A stretch of 37,763 nt of DNA, from the IMG/VR virus record IMGVR_UViG_3300032331_002003, positions 1-37,763 of that record, one strand, 5' to 3'. The notes below the pieces were generated by a model. That model saw only the letters and a program-made list of their open reading frames with translations. It was not told where the DNA came from and did not search any database. The DNA is from a virus. The translations under genes and the position numbers were made by a program. Positions 21,493-32,501 of the stretch are shown piece after piece. How positions within the stretch are numbered: the first letter of the stretch is position 1; the number at the start of each line of letters is the position of its first letter.

Positions 21493-21531
21493 GGCCCCTG
21501 CGTCTCCCATCAGGCGTGGGGGCCACTTTTT
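21493..21531 (+). terminator. Strong terminator at the end of the late block
   Basis: Bases 21493-21505 pair with 21512-21524 in a 13-position stem that contains a few G-T pairs, closing a 6-base loop, followed by ACTTTTT. It ends the long virion block and separates it from the replication block, which begins about 100 bases on. Confidence 0.88.
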
Positions 21532-21535
21532 AGAG

Positions 21536-21580
21536 TTATCCACAGGTTTGTTAAACAGGTGTTGCATATAAAAAAATATA
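21536..21580 (+). promoter_or_regulatory. Perfect DnaA box next to an AT-rich stretch
   Basis: TTATCCACA at 21536-21544 is the consensus DnaA box. It is followed by TTTGTTAAACAGG and then an AT-rich run from about 21566 to 21580 (21 bases with almost only A/T). No clean sigma70 pair could be fitted here: TATGAT is present but lacks a -35 at a sensible distance. The site lies 200 bases upstream of a gene for a protein with a DnaA-type DNA-binding domain, so it may be a replication start, an autoregulatory site, or both. Confidence 0.6.
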
Positions 21581-21635
21581 TGATACGGTCTCAGAAATCA
21601 GCGATGGGGCTGAGTAACACGGAGACACGGAAACT

Positions 21636-21749
21636 ATGTCAGAGCCAGATCCGCGCGTCGTAAGATTCCTAATAAATTTACTTGCGATGTGCCTATTCTC
21701 GATTATCGTATTCGGTCTAGCTTATATCGTTGATGGGTATGTGCAATGA
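21636..21749 (+). CDS. 37-residue single-span membrane protein
   Basis: A short open frame starts at ATG 21636 and ends in TGA overlapping the next gene's ATG (ATGA), which strongly suggests that it is translated and coupled. The product has a short charged N-terminus (SEPDPRVVR) and one hydrophobic segment, residues 10-32. The leader carries the sequence ACACGGAGACACGGAAA, similar to leaders of the minus-strand genes. It is the first gene of the replication block. Function unknown. Confidence 0.65.
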   Translation: MSEPDPRVVRFLINLLAMCLFSIIVFGLAYIVDGYVQ

Positions 21750-22216
21750 CCAGCGTTGATTGGAGATCGCATTACAAAGACGTGCGACAGAGACTTCGTG
21801 CTGCACCGCAGCATAACTTTGTCAGAGCACAGTTAAGGGAGCTACCTGCACCACAGCCTGAGCCAGAACCTGTACAGGAAGAGGTACAAGTCGAAGAAGG
21901 ACCGGCACCGCTTCCGCCATTGCTTGCAAGGCAATTCAGCGAAGCACATGAGCTTCTCCGCGCAGCTAAGATCACGGTTGTACCACGGTGGAAAGAAATT
22001 CTGAGGGAGACATGCGCCAAGTACAAGATTCACCCGGAAGAAGTTCTTGGAAAATCGCGAGAGTCGCCTTTGATATATTGCAGAAGGGAAGTCTACTACC
22101 GACTGAGGACAGAGTTAGGGATGAGTCTGAATCAGATCGGACTAAAGCTGAACAAGGATCACACGAGCGTACTGCACGGTGTGAGGGAATACGCAAAAGC
22201 ACTAGGGAAGCAATGA
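21746..22216 (+). CDS. DnaA domain IV-like DNA-binding protein
   Basis: The 156-residue protein has a basic N-terminal helix, a Pro/Glu linker (residues 34-58), and a C-terminal region (about 80-152) matching the DnaA DNA-binding domain. It shows a helix with ILRETCAKYKIHPEEVLGKS, then RREVYYRLRTELGMSLNQIG, and the signature KDHTSVLHGV at 137-146 (DnaA has DHTTV). There is no AAA+ ATPase part, so it cannot act like full DnaA. It could guide the host replication machinery to DnaA boxes, compete with host DnaA, or act as a repressor. Two perfect DnaA boxes occur in the window, one 200 bases upstream. Confidence 0.82.
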   Translation: MTSVDWRSHYKDVRQRLRAAPQHNFVRAQLRELPAPQPEPEPVQEEVQVEEGPAPLPPLLARQFSEAHELLRAAKITVVPRWKEILRETCAKYKIHPEEVLGKSRESPLIYCRREVYYRLRTELGMSLNQIGLKLNKDHTSVLHGVREYAKALGKQ

Positions 22217-24889: not shown

Positions 24890-27103
24890 GTGAGTGAAAG
24901 CCTACAACAAGATGAAGTGATACACAACGCTGCATCTCACAAGATGTCGTTAGCCTTTGCCAATAACGGTTTTAAGGACACCAGTCTTACGTCTAAAGAT
25001 TACACGTTGCAGGATCTCAGTGACCGCTTAAAGCGCGTCCGTGTCGGGCCAAAGGATGGCTCATACATGATACGGGGCGGTGATCTCACGATCTGCAAGC
25101 GAGCCGACGAGAATCTCAGATCAGCGGAACTGATTATCCTCGACGGTGATTCGTCGATCGATCCAGAGACAGGCGAGATCACACCCGGTGCCCCTTATTT
25201 CTATGACGTCCACGAAGCGCTTAAAGACATGGGCATCGCTCACATCATGCACACGTCACACAGCAACCGTGGCTCTGATGGCGTGGTGAGCTTCTGGAAA
25301 TTCCGTGTAGTCATCCCGTGCCAGATGCAGTCGCAAGAGGATCTGACCGCTGCTGTCGATTACCTGATCGCGGAGCTGCACAAGCGTAAGATATGGATGA
25401 ACTGCGTCACCGAAAACTATCGCTGGTCTCAGCCGTGGTTCCTCCCTCGCGTCAGCAAAGAGGAAGAGCGCGAGCGTTTCGTGCATCGCGATTACCTCGA
25501 CGGGCAGATCTTTAACATTGCGACAGCCCTAAAGTGGCAGCGCGAACAGACCAGTTTAGACGTACACATAGACCTGTTGAAGATCGCCCTGCCGCACAAC
25601 CAGTCGAGCAGCACGATCACCGACTTCAACGAGCAGCACGGTCTCGAATGGATGCGAGCGCAGCTGGCATCGATGGGTTACAAGTTTAGCCATTACGACA
25701 AGCGGCATGACGCATACCGATACGTGTCACCAACGAGCAGCACAGGCACAGCAGGAGTACTCCTGTTCCGTGGATCGCGTGGCGACTGGATCACCTATTC
25801 CCATCACGGGGCACACGATCCGTTGTCAGAGAAAGTGATGGACCCATTCGCGATCTACTCACTCGTAAATTTTTCTGGGGATAACTCTTCCGCACTCCGG
25901 TCGCTGCAACCCAGAGAAAAGAGCATCACGGAACAGCTATCGGAGATGCGGGATCACAGCGCGAGCATCGCTGCACCGCAACAAGATAATGCTGCACCGC
26001 AAAACAAAAAGCGCATCGAAATCCTGCGCATGGACCAGCTTACCGACGAGCCAGTGCAATGGCTGATAGAAGACCTGATCCCGGCAAAGGCATTCGCAGC
26101 GATCTACGGTAAACCCGGCAGCTTCAAGTCATTCGTGGCAATATATCTGAGCCAGATGATAGCGGCAGGCAAACCAGCATTCGAGAAGCCGACTACTCAA
26201 GGGACGTGCCTATACATCGCAGGGGAAGGCCAAGCAGGGCTAAAGAAGCGCTCGGACGCATCGCGTATAGCCCACGAGATTGAGCCCTCTGTGCCTCTCT
26301 ATTTCATTAAGCGAAGCCTGAACCTCAGCTCGACGCTGGAAGACATGCAGGAGCTCATCAAGGAGATCAGGGAACTCGGTATCGCGCCATCCCTCATAGT
26401 CATAGACACGCTCGCTCGTAACTTCGTCGGGGACGAGAACAGCTCATCAGACATGAGCCAATTCATATCGGTCATCGGCGAGCTCATAGCCCAGCTCAGT
26501 TGCTCAGTCTTAGTGGTCCACCATGCCGGTAAGGATGAGTCAAAGGGGATGCGTGGCTCGTCAGCTTTGCTCGGTGCAGTGGACGCGGAACTCGAATGCA
26601 CACGCACATCAGATGAGGAGGACAAGGACCACCTGACCGGAAAACTGACCACAACAAAGCAGAAGGAATCGGAGGACGGGGTCGAGTTTCACTTCAAGAT
26701 GCAGCGGATTCTGACAGACAAACTGGACCCGAATATCGTCTCACTAGGGCTTAGACCCTGTGAGAAACAGGAGCAGAAAAAGCGTCAGAAAAAGAAGCTC
26801 ACAGAGGCCGAGATTTTCGTGCTCGATGCTCTCGACAAAGCCATCACGGACTTTGGAAAACGGTATGGTGTACCCGGAATACCGTCAGAAAAACTGTGTG
26901 TCAGACGCGCAGATCTACTATCCTCATTCCGACATTTGTGTGCTGCGGACGACAAATTCAGCGACAGAACGTACCAAAGAGCCGTCAAAGACCTCAGCAT
27001 CGCAAAAATCATAGGCGTCATGGGCGACATTTTATGGAAAAACGATATAAATCAACGAGTTACAGCGACAAGCGACACGGCGACATTGGGCGACACGGAA
27101 TAA
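24890..27103 (+). CDS. Primase-helicase fusion (AEP-like primase plus RepA/AAA_25 helicase)
   Basis: The 737-residue protein starts at GTG 24890 behind CGGAGA. The N-terminal part (about 1-240) shows features of archaeo-eukaryotic-type primases: LIILDGD (Asp85, Asp87), MHTSHSNR near 120-127 and KFRVVIP near 137-143. The C-terminal part (about 380-610) is a RecA-type helicase of the RepA/AAA_25 group: Walker A YGKPGSFKS (406-414), Walker B LIVIDT (Asp506) and VVHHAGKD (542-549). Such fusions start and unwind at replication origins. The 3' end of the gene carries GCGACA hexamers that continue into the intergenic region. Confidence 0.85.
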   Translation: MSESLQQDEVIHNAASHKMSLAFANNGFKDTSLTSKDYTLQDLSDRLKRVRVGPKDGSYMIRGGDLTICKRADENLRSAELIILDGDSSIDPETGEITPGAPYFYDVHEALKDMGIAHIMHTSHSNRGSDGVVSFWKFRVVIPCQMQSQEDLTAAVDYLIAELHKRKIWMNCVTENYRWSQPWFLPRVSKEEERERFVHRDYLDGQIFNIATALKWQREQTSLDVHIDLLKIALPHNQSSSTITDFNEQHGLEWMRAQLASMGYKFSHYDKRHDAYRYVSPTSSTGTAGVLLFRGSRGDWITYSHHGAHDPLSEKVMDPFAIYSLVNFSGDNSSALRSLQPREKSITEQLSEMRDHSASIAAPQQDNAAPQNKKRIEILRMDQLTDEPVQWLIEDLIPAKAFAAIYGKPGSFKSFVAIYLSQMIAAGKPAFEKPTTQGTCLYIAGEGQAGLKKRSDASRIAHEIEPSVPLYFIKRSLNLSSTLEDMQELIKEIRELGIAPSLIVIDTLARNFVGDENSSSDMSQFISVIGELIAQLSCSVLVVHHAGKDESKGMRGSSALLGAVDAELECTRTSDEEDKDHLTGKLTTTKQKESEDGVEFHFKMQRILTDKLDPNIVSLGLRPCEKQEQKKRQKKKLTEAEIFVLDALDKAITDFGKRYGVPGIPSEKLCVRRADLLSSFRHLCAADDKFSDRTYQRAVKDLSIAKIIGVMGDILWKNDINQRVTATSDTATLGDTE

Positions 27104-30428: not shown

Positions 30429-30459
30429 TTTTGGGAACGCGTTGAAATTGCGGGGGAAA

Positions 30460-30933
30460 ATGGCGAAAGAAGCTAAAAAGAACGGCAGGCCAACCATGAA
30501 AAATCAGGCTTTGCTTGAAGAATTTTGCCGCAGAATCGCTGCTGGGCGTTCTGTTGCAAATGTTTGCTCCGAAGATGACATGCCTGCGGATAAGACAATC
30601 TGGCAATGGTTGTCGCAAGACAAGAGCTTTGCAGATGACTATGCGCGCGCAATTCAGGCGCGAGCCATGCACCATGCTGACGGGATTCTCGATCTCGAAC
30701 AAAAGTTGCTGAGCGGGGAAATTCCGCCAGACGTTGCGCGGGTTGCGCTCGATACGAGGAAATGGGTTGCCTCACGCCTGCTGCCAAAAACTTATGGCGA
30801 CCGGCAAAGCGTTGACGTTTCCGTGACTCACACTCATCAACTGCACTTGGACGCGCTGAAACGGCTTAACGACACGGCCAAAGCGTTACCGGCAAGCGAT
30901 ATAATAGACGGGGAAATTGTTAGCGTTTCCTAA
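30460..30933 (+). CDS. Small terminase subunit (Sf6-type)
   Basis: From ATG 30460, behind GCGGGGG, the protein has 157 residues; an upstream in-frame TTG is less likely. The N-terminal HTH region (EFCRRIAAGRSVANVCSEDD then MPADKTIWQWLSQD, residues 21-54) and the helical DDYARAIQARAMHHADGILD match Sf6/P22-like small terminases, which bind the packaging site. The C-terminus is variable. The large subunit lies 3.7 kb away, an unusual gap filled with accessory genes. Confidence 0.8.
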   Translation: MAKEAKKNGRPTMKNQALLEEFCRRIAAGRSVANVCSEDDMPADKTIWQWLSQDKSFADDYARAIQARAMHHADGILDLEQKLLSGEIPPDVARVALDTRKWVASRLLPKTYGDRQSVDVSVTHTHQLHLDALKRLNDTAKALPASDIIDGEIVSVS

Positions 30934-30955
30934 TAGGGCTTGATCTAGTGGGAAG

Positions 30956-30964
30956 TTATCCACA
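30956..30964 (+). promoter_or_regulatory. Second perfect DnaA box
   Basis: TTATCCACA at 30956-30964 lies in the 264-base intergenic region upstream of the serine recombinase. Together with flanking bases it shares 13 bases (AGTTATCCACAGG) with the box at 21536, more than the 9-base consensus alone. Confidence 0.6.
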
Positions 30965-30992
30965 GGCAGAAAACAGTCCCACAGAAATGTTA

Positions 30993-31090
30993 TTGACGTT
31001 TTGGGAAATCAGTCTTACAGATTCTTAGACTTAAACGGGAAAGGATTCTGTAACATGTAACAGGCGCGACGAGCGACGGGGTGAGCGACG
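30993..31090 (+). promoter_or_regulatory. Recombinase upstream region: promoter and short repeats (possible res-like site)
   Basis: TTGACG (30993-30998) and TACAGA (31016-31021) are 17 bases apart and may drive the recombinase. Downstream, TGTAACA occurs twice in tandem (31049-31055 and 31056-31062), and GCGACG three times (31066, 31073, 31085). Small serine recombinases usually bind crossover and accessory sites next to their own gene, so a res-like role is plausible; no consensus could be matched by eye. The gap up to 31197 also contains a C/G-rich stretch with CCCC and GGGG arms. Confidence 0.4.
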
Positions 31091-31197
31091 CGGAAACCGT
31101 GAAACTGCAAGACCCCCCGTCTCGACCCCCCACCGGGGTGCGCCTGCTGCAGCCAACCCGCTCCCCCAAAACTGAAAAACTCACACGGAGATAAGGT

Positions 31198-31749
31198 ATG
31201 CTTATAGGTTATGCTCGTACTTCCACCAATGACCAGCACGCAGGTCTCGACGCGCAACGGCGTGACTTATCCGCGTCAGGGTGCGAGCGCATCTTTGACG
31301 AGCAGGTGTCATCTGTAGCGCGTCGTGACAGGCTTGATGAGGCCATCCAGTACTTGCGCGATGGCGATGTTCTTGTCGTGACCAAGTTGGACCGGCTTGC
31401 TCGCAGTGTCGCGGATCTAGTGACGATTGTTGCTGAGATTGAAAAGCGCGGCGCGAGCCTGCGTATCCTCGCCATGAATCTTGATACACACACACCGACA
31501 GGCAAGCTGATGCTGAATGTGATTGGCTCTGTGGCGCAGTTTGAGCGTGAGATCATGCTTGAGCGTCAGCGTGAGGGTATCCAGAAGGCGAAGCGAGACG
31601 GGAAATACAGGGGCAGGAAGCCGACTGCGGCTGTGCGGAAAGACGAGATCGTGACGCTATTGGCTGGCGGGGTTAAGCCCTTGGAGATCGCGTCACAGTT
31701 GCAGATCTCGAAGAGCAGCGTTTACCGTTTGATAGGGGAGATGGGATGA
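31198..31749 (+). CDS. Small serine recombinase (resolvase/invertase family)
   Basis: The 183-residue protein has catalytic Ser9 in GYARTSTNDQ, KLDRLARSVADL at 63-74 (Arg66 and Arg69), and FEREIMLERQREGI at the start of the linking E helix. A C-terminal HTH (about 145-180: VTLLAGGVKPLEIASQLQIS, SVYRLIG) follows. Length and layout are those of Tn3-type resolvases and DNA invertases, not of large integrases. It could resolve genome dimers or invert a segment; no inverted-repeat-flanked segment was noticed. GGAGATAAGG precedes the start. Confidence 0.9.
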   Translation: MLIGYARTSTNDQHAGLDAQRRDLSASGCERIFDEQVSSVARRDRLDEAIQYLRDGDVLVVTKLDRLARSVADLVTIVAEIEKRGASLRILAMNLDTHTPTGKLMLNVIGSVAQFEREIMLERQREGIQKAKRDGKYRGRKPTAAVRKDEIVTLLAGGVKPLEIASQLQISKSSVYRLIGEMG

Positions 31750-32501
31750 TTTCTGATGGCGATAAGATTGCTGTTTGGTTTTCCTGTGGCGCTGCCAGTG
31801 CTGTCGCTGCCAAATTAACGCTAGAGAAGTACGGAGATCGGTGTAGCGTATCTGTTCTGAATAGCCCGGTTGCCGAGGAAGATGAGGATAATCGGCGCTT
31901 TCTTTCTGATGTGGAGAAATGGTTGGGCGTTGAGATTGGCATCGTCAGGGCAAAGAAATATCCGTCATGTTCTGCTGTTGAGGTTTGGAATGACCGGAAA
32001 TTTATGAGCGGTAATGCTGGTGCTCCGTGTACCTTGGAGCTGAAGAAGAAGGCGCGTCAGGAATGGGAGAGGCAGAATCAAGTTGACTGGCACGTTCTTG
32101 GTTTTACCTTTGACGAGATCAGGCGGCATGAGAGGTTTGTTTTAACTGAGAGGGATAATGTTATTCCTGTGCTTATAGATGAGCGCGTAACGAAGGACAT
32201 GTGCTACGACTATTTGCGTAAGGTAGGGATTGAGTTGCCAAGGATTTATAGTCTTGGGTATCCGAATGCGAATTGCATTGGCTGTGTTAAAGCGACATCC
32301 GCAACGTATTGGAGCCATGTTAAGTCTGTGCATCCAGATGTGTTTAGAGATCGTGCCGAGCAATCGCGTCGCATTGGAGCGAAGCTAGTGCGGCACAAGG
32401 GTAAGCGGATGTTCTTGGATGAGCTGCCAGATGGGGCTTTAGGCAGACCGATGAAGAACATGGATTTTGAGTGCGGGTTGTTCTGCGAGGAAAAGATCTA
32501 G
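31746..32501 (+). CDS. PAPS-reductase-like (PP-loop) protein
   Basis: The 251-residue protein begins with an adenine-nucleotide alpha-hydrolase fold: AVWFSCGAASAVAAKL (residues 9-24), a PP-loop variant. Cysteines cluster as APC95, CIGC (177-180) and CGLFC (243-247), enough for an iron-sulfur or zinc site. Related phage and defence proteins (DndC-like, PAPS reductase-like) transfer sulfur or modify nucleic acid. Whether this one acts on sulfate, tRNA or DNA is not visible. Its start overlaps the recombinase stop (ATGA), so it belongs to the same transcript. Confidence 0.78.
   Translation: MISDGDKIAVWFSCGAASAVAAKLTLEKYGDRCSVSVLNSPVAEEDEDNRRFLSDVEKWLGVEIGIVRAKKYPSCSAVEVWNDRKFMSGNAGAPCTLELKKKARQEWERQNQVDWHVLGFTFDEIRRHERFVLTERDNVIPVLIDERVTKDMCYDYLRKVGIELPRIYSLGYPNANCIGCVKATSATYWSHVKSVHPDVFRDRAEQSRRIGAKLVRHKGKRMFLDELPDGALGRPMKNMDFECGLFCEEKI

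Follow-up and report, generated by a model that had tools for sequence, protein, structure and literature searches.

Does a phage protein that carries only the DNA-binding domain of DnaA act on the DnaA boxes of its own genome, or are those boxes read by the DnaA of the host? The question is raised by an IMG/VR virus record (IMGVR_UViG_3300032331_002003), analysed here as a single stretch of 37,763 nucleotides that is referred to as the window. A direct terminal repeat of 123 nt marks the window as a complete phage genome. Neighbours of its recombinase and portal point weakly to a host among the Alphaproteobacteria, and a search for the host with the helicase returned two MAG matches only. Rfam and PADLOC searches of the window give no match, and relatives of the DnaA-like protein were not found in genome_contigs. 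The protein encoded at 33246-33965 matches the N-terminal domain of biotin-protein ligase (glutamine-amidotransferase-like) at 51 bits and has no PHROG match.

A stand-alone DnaA domain IV protein

An earlier note on this DNA had described the protein starting at 21746 as a DnaA DNA-binding domain without an AAA+ part. Profile, fold and contact residues confirm that the gene product is a stand-alone DnaA domain IV (Table 1). Residues 84-147 match Bac_DnaA_C (PF08299) in Pfam at 50.1 bits against a cut-off of 31.5, and no other helix-turn-helix family scores better in this profile search, which the note had proposed as a check. A Pfam search of all 156 residues gives no AAA+ match. The NCBIfam model of DnaA (TIGR00362) aligns over profile positions 347-418 of 437 only and yields 42.2 bits, below its cut-off of 343.9. 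With this score and with AAA+ domain III absent, the protein is ruled out as a full chromosomal initiator DnaA. Because it has no AAA+ domain, it would be unable to oligomerise on ATP or to open DNA.

The AlphaFold2 model of the protein has pLDDT values of 89-95 over residues 81-150. Its top three fold matches (8btg, Z 13.4; 3pvp, Z 13.0; 1j1v, Z 12.8) are all DnaA domain IV, either alone with DnaA-box DNA or within DnaA, and the next unrelated fold follows at Z 7.4. Domain IV occupies residues ~80-153 and is preceded by an N-terminal helix with an HYKDVRxRLR motif, a Pro/Glu-rich linker and a helix at residues 58-73. The motif recurs, as HYKxVRxR, across much of the phage DnaA-C family.

The window protein has conserved the residues equivalent to R399, R407, D433, H434, T435 and H439 of E. 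coli DnaA. Of 97 phage clusters, 94 retain R399 and 96 retain R407, and D433, H434 and T435 are retained too; the last three sat in several search patterns, which accounts for part of their conservation among the wider family and leaves R399 alone as largely unbiased. Position 408 is Arg, not Gln, and position 439 is His or Tyr within the window's genus. From its sequence, the protein is predicted to bind TTATCCACA and should do so as DnaA domain IV does.

Proteins of this type are widespread in uncultured phages, where they are found on hundreds of contigs, and all 41 members of set A8 match Bac_DnaA_C. On contigs L090 and L089, a second and weaker DnaA-C-like reading frame lies ~0.8 kb upstream of the first.

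Table 1. Features of the window around the two DnaA boxes.
Feature	Position	Strand	Basis or remark
Intrinsic-terminator-like stem-loop followed by T run	21493..21524	+	Directly before box 1; stem letters changed but structure kept in relatives
Box 1, AGTTATCCACAGG containing the perfect DnaA box TTATCCACA	21534..21546	+	Flanks invariant; conservation in 14 sequences
Putative early promoter, TTGCAT-16-TACGGT	21562..21589	+	Overlaps AT-rich dyad; by eye, TTGnnn-16/17-TAnGGT in all four sub-lineages
AT-rich dyad, CATATA-A6-TATATG	21565-21582		Alignment of relatives
Possible leader hairpin, TCAGC-GATGGG-GCTGA	21598..21613	+	Before the Shine-Dalgarno element; weak support from some compensating changes (both arms altered in 3 cells)
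Shine-Dalgarno-like CACGGAGACACGGA, invariant	21618..21631	+	Alignment
Small hydrophobic ORF, 37 aa, first gene of operon	21636..21749	+	ATGA overlap with DnaA-IV gene; present in aligned relatives
Stand-alone DnaA domain IV protein, 156 aa	21746..22216	+	Pfam, AlphaFold2 model, fold search
Helicase-primase (AAA_25 / DNA primase), same early operon	24890..27103	+	Profile matches
Terminase small subunit, last gene before box 2	30442..30933	+	PF20901 (101 bits), phrog_1482
Box 2, same 13-mer as box 1	30954..30966	+	9-mer starts ~25 nt after terminase small subunit ORF
Putative promoter downstream of box 2, TTGACG-17-TACAGA	30993..31021	+	TTGAC invariant in six aligned sequences

A conserved DnaA box at the head of the early operon

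The perfect box TTATCCACA occurs at 21536-21544 and at 30956-30964, each time within an identical 13-mer that has two copies in 37.6 kb. The consensus box that had been placed about 200 bases upstream of the gene is thus present, 210 nt before its ATG, and the second copy with 13 shared bases is where it had been reported. Counting such sites is of little help: TTWTNCACA is found twice in the window against 2.77 expected from shuffled sequence, which is not above chance, and the evidence for the boxes is therefore their conservation. The 13-mer of box 1 is unchanged in 14 of 14 distinct upstream sequences, which come from four sub-lineages and share 65-92% identity with the window in this region. 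It stays invariant while the sequence from the box to the Shine-Dalgarno element turns over, and this element provides the sole other invariant run of at least 10 nucleotides in the aligned upstream region. Judged by these alignments, the association of box 1 with the DnaA-IV gene is real and under selection in the window's genus.

The early operon that follows box 1 encodes, in order, the 37-aa protein, the DnaA-IV protein, DUF6378, exonuclease VIII, a Holliday junction resolvase and the helicase-primase. Boxes 1 and 2 have the same orientation, and both lie ahead of promoter-like sequences. These promoters are listed as putative because a consensus promoter scan calls neither of them.

The AT-rich stretch previously noted beside box 1 is real in the window, but it is replaced by unrelated sequence in three sub-lineages (L067, L085 and L014) and so is not a conserved unwinding element. 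An origin would be expected to combine several DnaA boxes with a conserved AT-rich element of this kind; box 1 is a single box beside a tract that is replaced. There is no GC-skew minimum at box 1, and nothing found places a replication origin there.

Two further observations concern this region and the genes behind it. In L009-L013 the dyad reads CGTATA-A6-TATACG, a matched change on both arms that keeps the symmetry as in an operator. The sequence AGTTATCCCCAGA at 25874 was considered as a conserved box and rejected, since it lies inside the helicase gene, where conservation may be coding.

Distribution of boxes among phages with DnaA-C genes

The conserved box ahead of the operon that encodes the protein is a finding for the window's genus only. 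Among dereplicated phage DnaA-C clusters, 3 of 100 have TTWTCCACA at most 400 bp upstream of the gene. One-mismatch boxes are found at most 300 bp upstream in 7 of 97 clusters, a number that lies within permuted-word controls. These counts reject a general rule by which DnaA-C genes in phages are accompanied by a box. The link between box and protein drawn in the earlier note therefore holds for the window's genus but does not extend to most other phages with such proteins, and box-mediated autoregulation is not a trait of the family.

The converse search gives a similar picture. At least 120 viral stretches contain the extended 13-mer preceded by a T run; in 117 of 120 no DnaA-C gene was seen nearby, and the other three have a DnaA-C reading frame, one of them being from the window's genus. 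The 13-mer is thus not reserved for phages that encode such proteins. Contig L105, with three TTTTCCACA boxes, was rejected as a second lineage because not all of them are kept in its relative L129. An upstream TTATCCACA in L040 and L044 looks coding, judged by eye, as it lies in a RusA-like reading frame.

Boxes at the terminase junction

Box 2 is also found in relatives of the window. At its site, TTATCCACA is kept in G003, G004, G016 and G017, and one-mismatch forms occur in G002 (TTTTCCACA) and G014 (TTATCAACA). In portal-related phages, TTATCCACA is present at the junction of the small and large terminase genes in 20 of 25 loci, a set that includes the window's own genus and near-duplicates. 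The boxes number 1-4 per locus, lie between -36 and +200 from the stop codon and are almost absent elsewhere. When ten lineages with less than 90% TerL identity are considered, 15 boxes fall in the 4.0 kb around the terminase-small stop, versus one (box 1 of the window) in 170 kb elsewhere. Eleven of these 15 follow the stop, and some of those before it fall in terminase codons (Leu-Ser-Thr). The window has a single box at this junction, where most related loci carry 1-4 perfect ones.

A DnaA-C search of 20 portal-related contigs, 17 of them with a box, found the gene in two, both without a box. Another five contigs that encode DnaA-C and are 25-39 kb long (G039, G040, G042, G044 and G054) also lack a box; taken together, G037-G040, G042, G044 and G054 have no TTATCCACA in 25-40 kb. 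Four others (G049-G052) have one or two boxes each, at least four of these being in coding sequence, and most of their DnaA-C matches do not reach the family cut-off. Most contigs with box arrays are fragments, in which the absence of a DnaA-C gene is unproven, and the set was partly chosen for having boxes, so that mutual exclusion of gene and array is suggestive only. Relatives that have junction boxes, and in which no DnaA-C gene was found, suggest that box 2 is probably a host-DnaA site independent of the DnaA-IV protein.

Seven junction arrays (L495, L504, L520, L522, L527, L532 and L534) comprise 1-4 perfect boxes and are accompanied by a shared AT-rich element, TAACATAATGnnnnnTGTATyAA, and a C-run/G-run stretch. 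No array is seen in the stretches compared from the isolates phiM5, MJing1, C72C1, Venkman, SCYZ1, DB2, MW202879 and MW202462. Box-2-like matches in L417, L418, L431, L436 and L438 are not homologous, as they belong to one reading frame (GLIHKE), nor is the match in L425, which lies within the large terminase gene.

The DNA that follows box 2 has features of its own. A non-coding block of ~50 nt at 31112-31167, between box 2 and the recombinase gene, is nearly invariant in 6 of 6 aligned sequences and is possibly a packaging or recombination site. The serine recombinase region (31102-31750) has 96-97% DNA identity to G002, G003 and G004, compared with 72-90% for most neighbouring stretches, and has possibly been exchanged recently.

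Roles for the protein and its boxes

Most likely, the phage protein and host DnaA share both boxes. As to what the protein does there, the reading placed first, tentatively, is that it competes with host DnaA and regulates its own expression at box 1. This reading is ranked first because, in the window's genus, the gene follows closely on a box that never varies. When the phage enters, the box ahead of the early operon would be filled by host DnaA. After its synthesis, the phage protein would compete for box 1 and thereby regulate its own early operon, perhaps displacing host DnaA. Box 2, at the terminase junction, and boxes in the host might be further sites that it occupies.

We infer the binding, competition and regulatory effect of the protein. 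They are supported by the identification of domain IV through profile and fold, the contact residues, the invariance of box 1, its position at an operon head behind a terminator and the shared orientation of the two boxes ahead of promoter-like sequences. Weighing against competition and autoregulation, most DnaA-C phages have no box near the gene, and two members of the same phage group (MW202711 and MW202496) have none upstream of it. In addition, the promoters are not called by the scan, and equivalent boxes exist in phages in which no DnaA-C gene was found.

Close behind, at a somewhat lower probability, comes the reading that host DnaA alone uses the boxes, as an origin or a DnaA-controlled promoter. 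The phage protein would then act mainly on host boxes, for example oriC, as a natural dominant negative, and its nearness to box 1 would be indirect. Perfect boxes at the terminase-small stop of related phages in which no DnaA-C gene was found argue for this reading, as do the many viral contigs that have the extended 13-mer without such a gene nearby and the missing box in most DnaA-C phages. Because of the site of box 2 in relatives and these two distributions, host DnaA is at least as good a candidate reader of the boxes as the phage protein. However, in the window's genus box 1 exactly heads the operon of a box reader and never varies, and the many array contigs that are fragments leave the absence of the gene unproven.

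A broader proposal, which we consider unlikely as it stands, is that the terminase-small stop carries an oriC-like array for host DnaA that serves as a phage origin or as a DnaA-controlled late promoter. Lineages would use either this array or their own DnaA-IV reader, and the window's genus would use both. The junction array points to host DnaA in origin function or late control; the timing of these phages would in that case be tied to the initiator of host replication.

Less likely than the first two readings is a role for the protein in recognizing the phage's own origin, where it would mark the box and recruit the helicase-primase through its N-terminal HYKxVRxR motif. The gene stands at the start of a replication operon, it also lies upstream of related helicase-primases (40-46% identity), and its N-terminal motif is recurrent. 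Set against these points are the single box per site in the window, the unconserved AT-rich tract, the lack of a GC-skew minimum at box 1 and the DnaA-C relatives that have no box at all in 25-40 kb.

It is improbable that drift has given the domain another target sequence, leaving the box unrelated to the protein. The residues at positions 408 and 439 and the orthologues without upstream boxes would fit such a drift, but R399, R407 and the DHT residues are retained and the box is invariant. That the boxes are chance matches is very improbable: their number equals the shuffle expectation, yet box 1 is invariant in 14 sequences, the identical 13-mer occurs twice and box 2 is kept in position. 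For competition with host DnaA, the reading that we place first, the window's genus, in which an invariant box heads the operon of the protein itself, offers a clean and testable case.

Comparison with known systems

The window protein shares its fold over ~77 residues, at 2.0-2.1 Å, with domain IV of E. coli and M. tuberculosis DnaA bound to DnaA-box DNA (PDB 1j1v and 3pvp, respectively). Unlike these DnaA proteins, it has no domains I-III and instead carries its own N-terminal helix and Pro/Glu linker.

Stand-alone Bac_DnaA_C proteins like that of the window are encoded by the Pelagibacter phages HTVC034P, HTVC010P, Greip and Skadi. They also occur in Cellulophaga phi19:3, Olleya Harreka_1, Microcystis Mae-JY35, uncultured Caudovirales and PHROG 27829. 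The known phage DnaA-C proteins are ~25-36% identical to the window protein, and TTWTNCACA is absent from the 500 nt upstream of the DnaA-C gene in seven phage isolates. The open-access literature searched holds no experimental or functional study of stand-alone phage DnaA domain IV proteins.

The Manatee Spring phages MW202711 and MW202496 belong to the same phage group as the window (portal identity 48-49%) and have a DnaA-C gene with an N-terminal HYxxVRxRxR motif. They differ from the window in having no TTATCCACA near or upstream of this gene.

DnaA-like proteins are also encoded by the Rickettsia felis plasmid pRF, and the authors of that study suggest that they act in initiation of plasmid replication (PMC1800911). 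Like the window protein, they reside on a mobile element, but they are plasmid-borne and the likeness is one of description. Among these systems, the window protein is one ordinary representative of a known kind, and what is new is the invariant box at its own operon together with the box array at the terminase junction.
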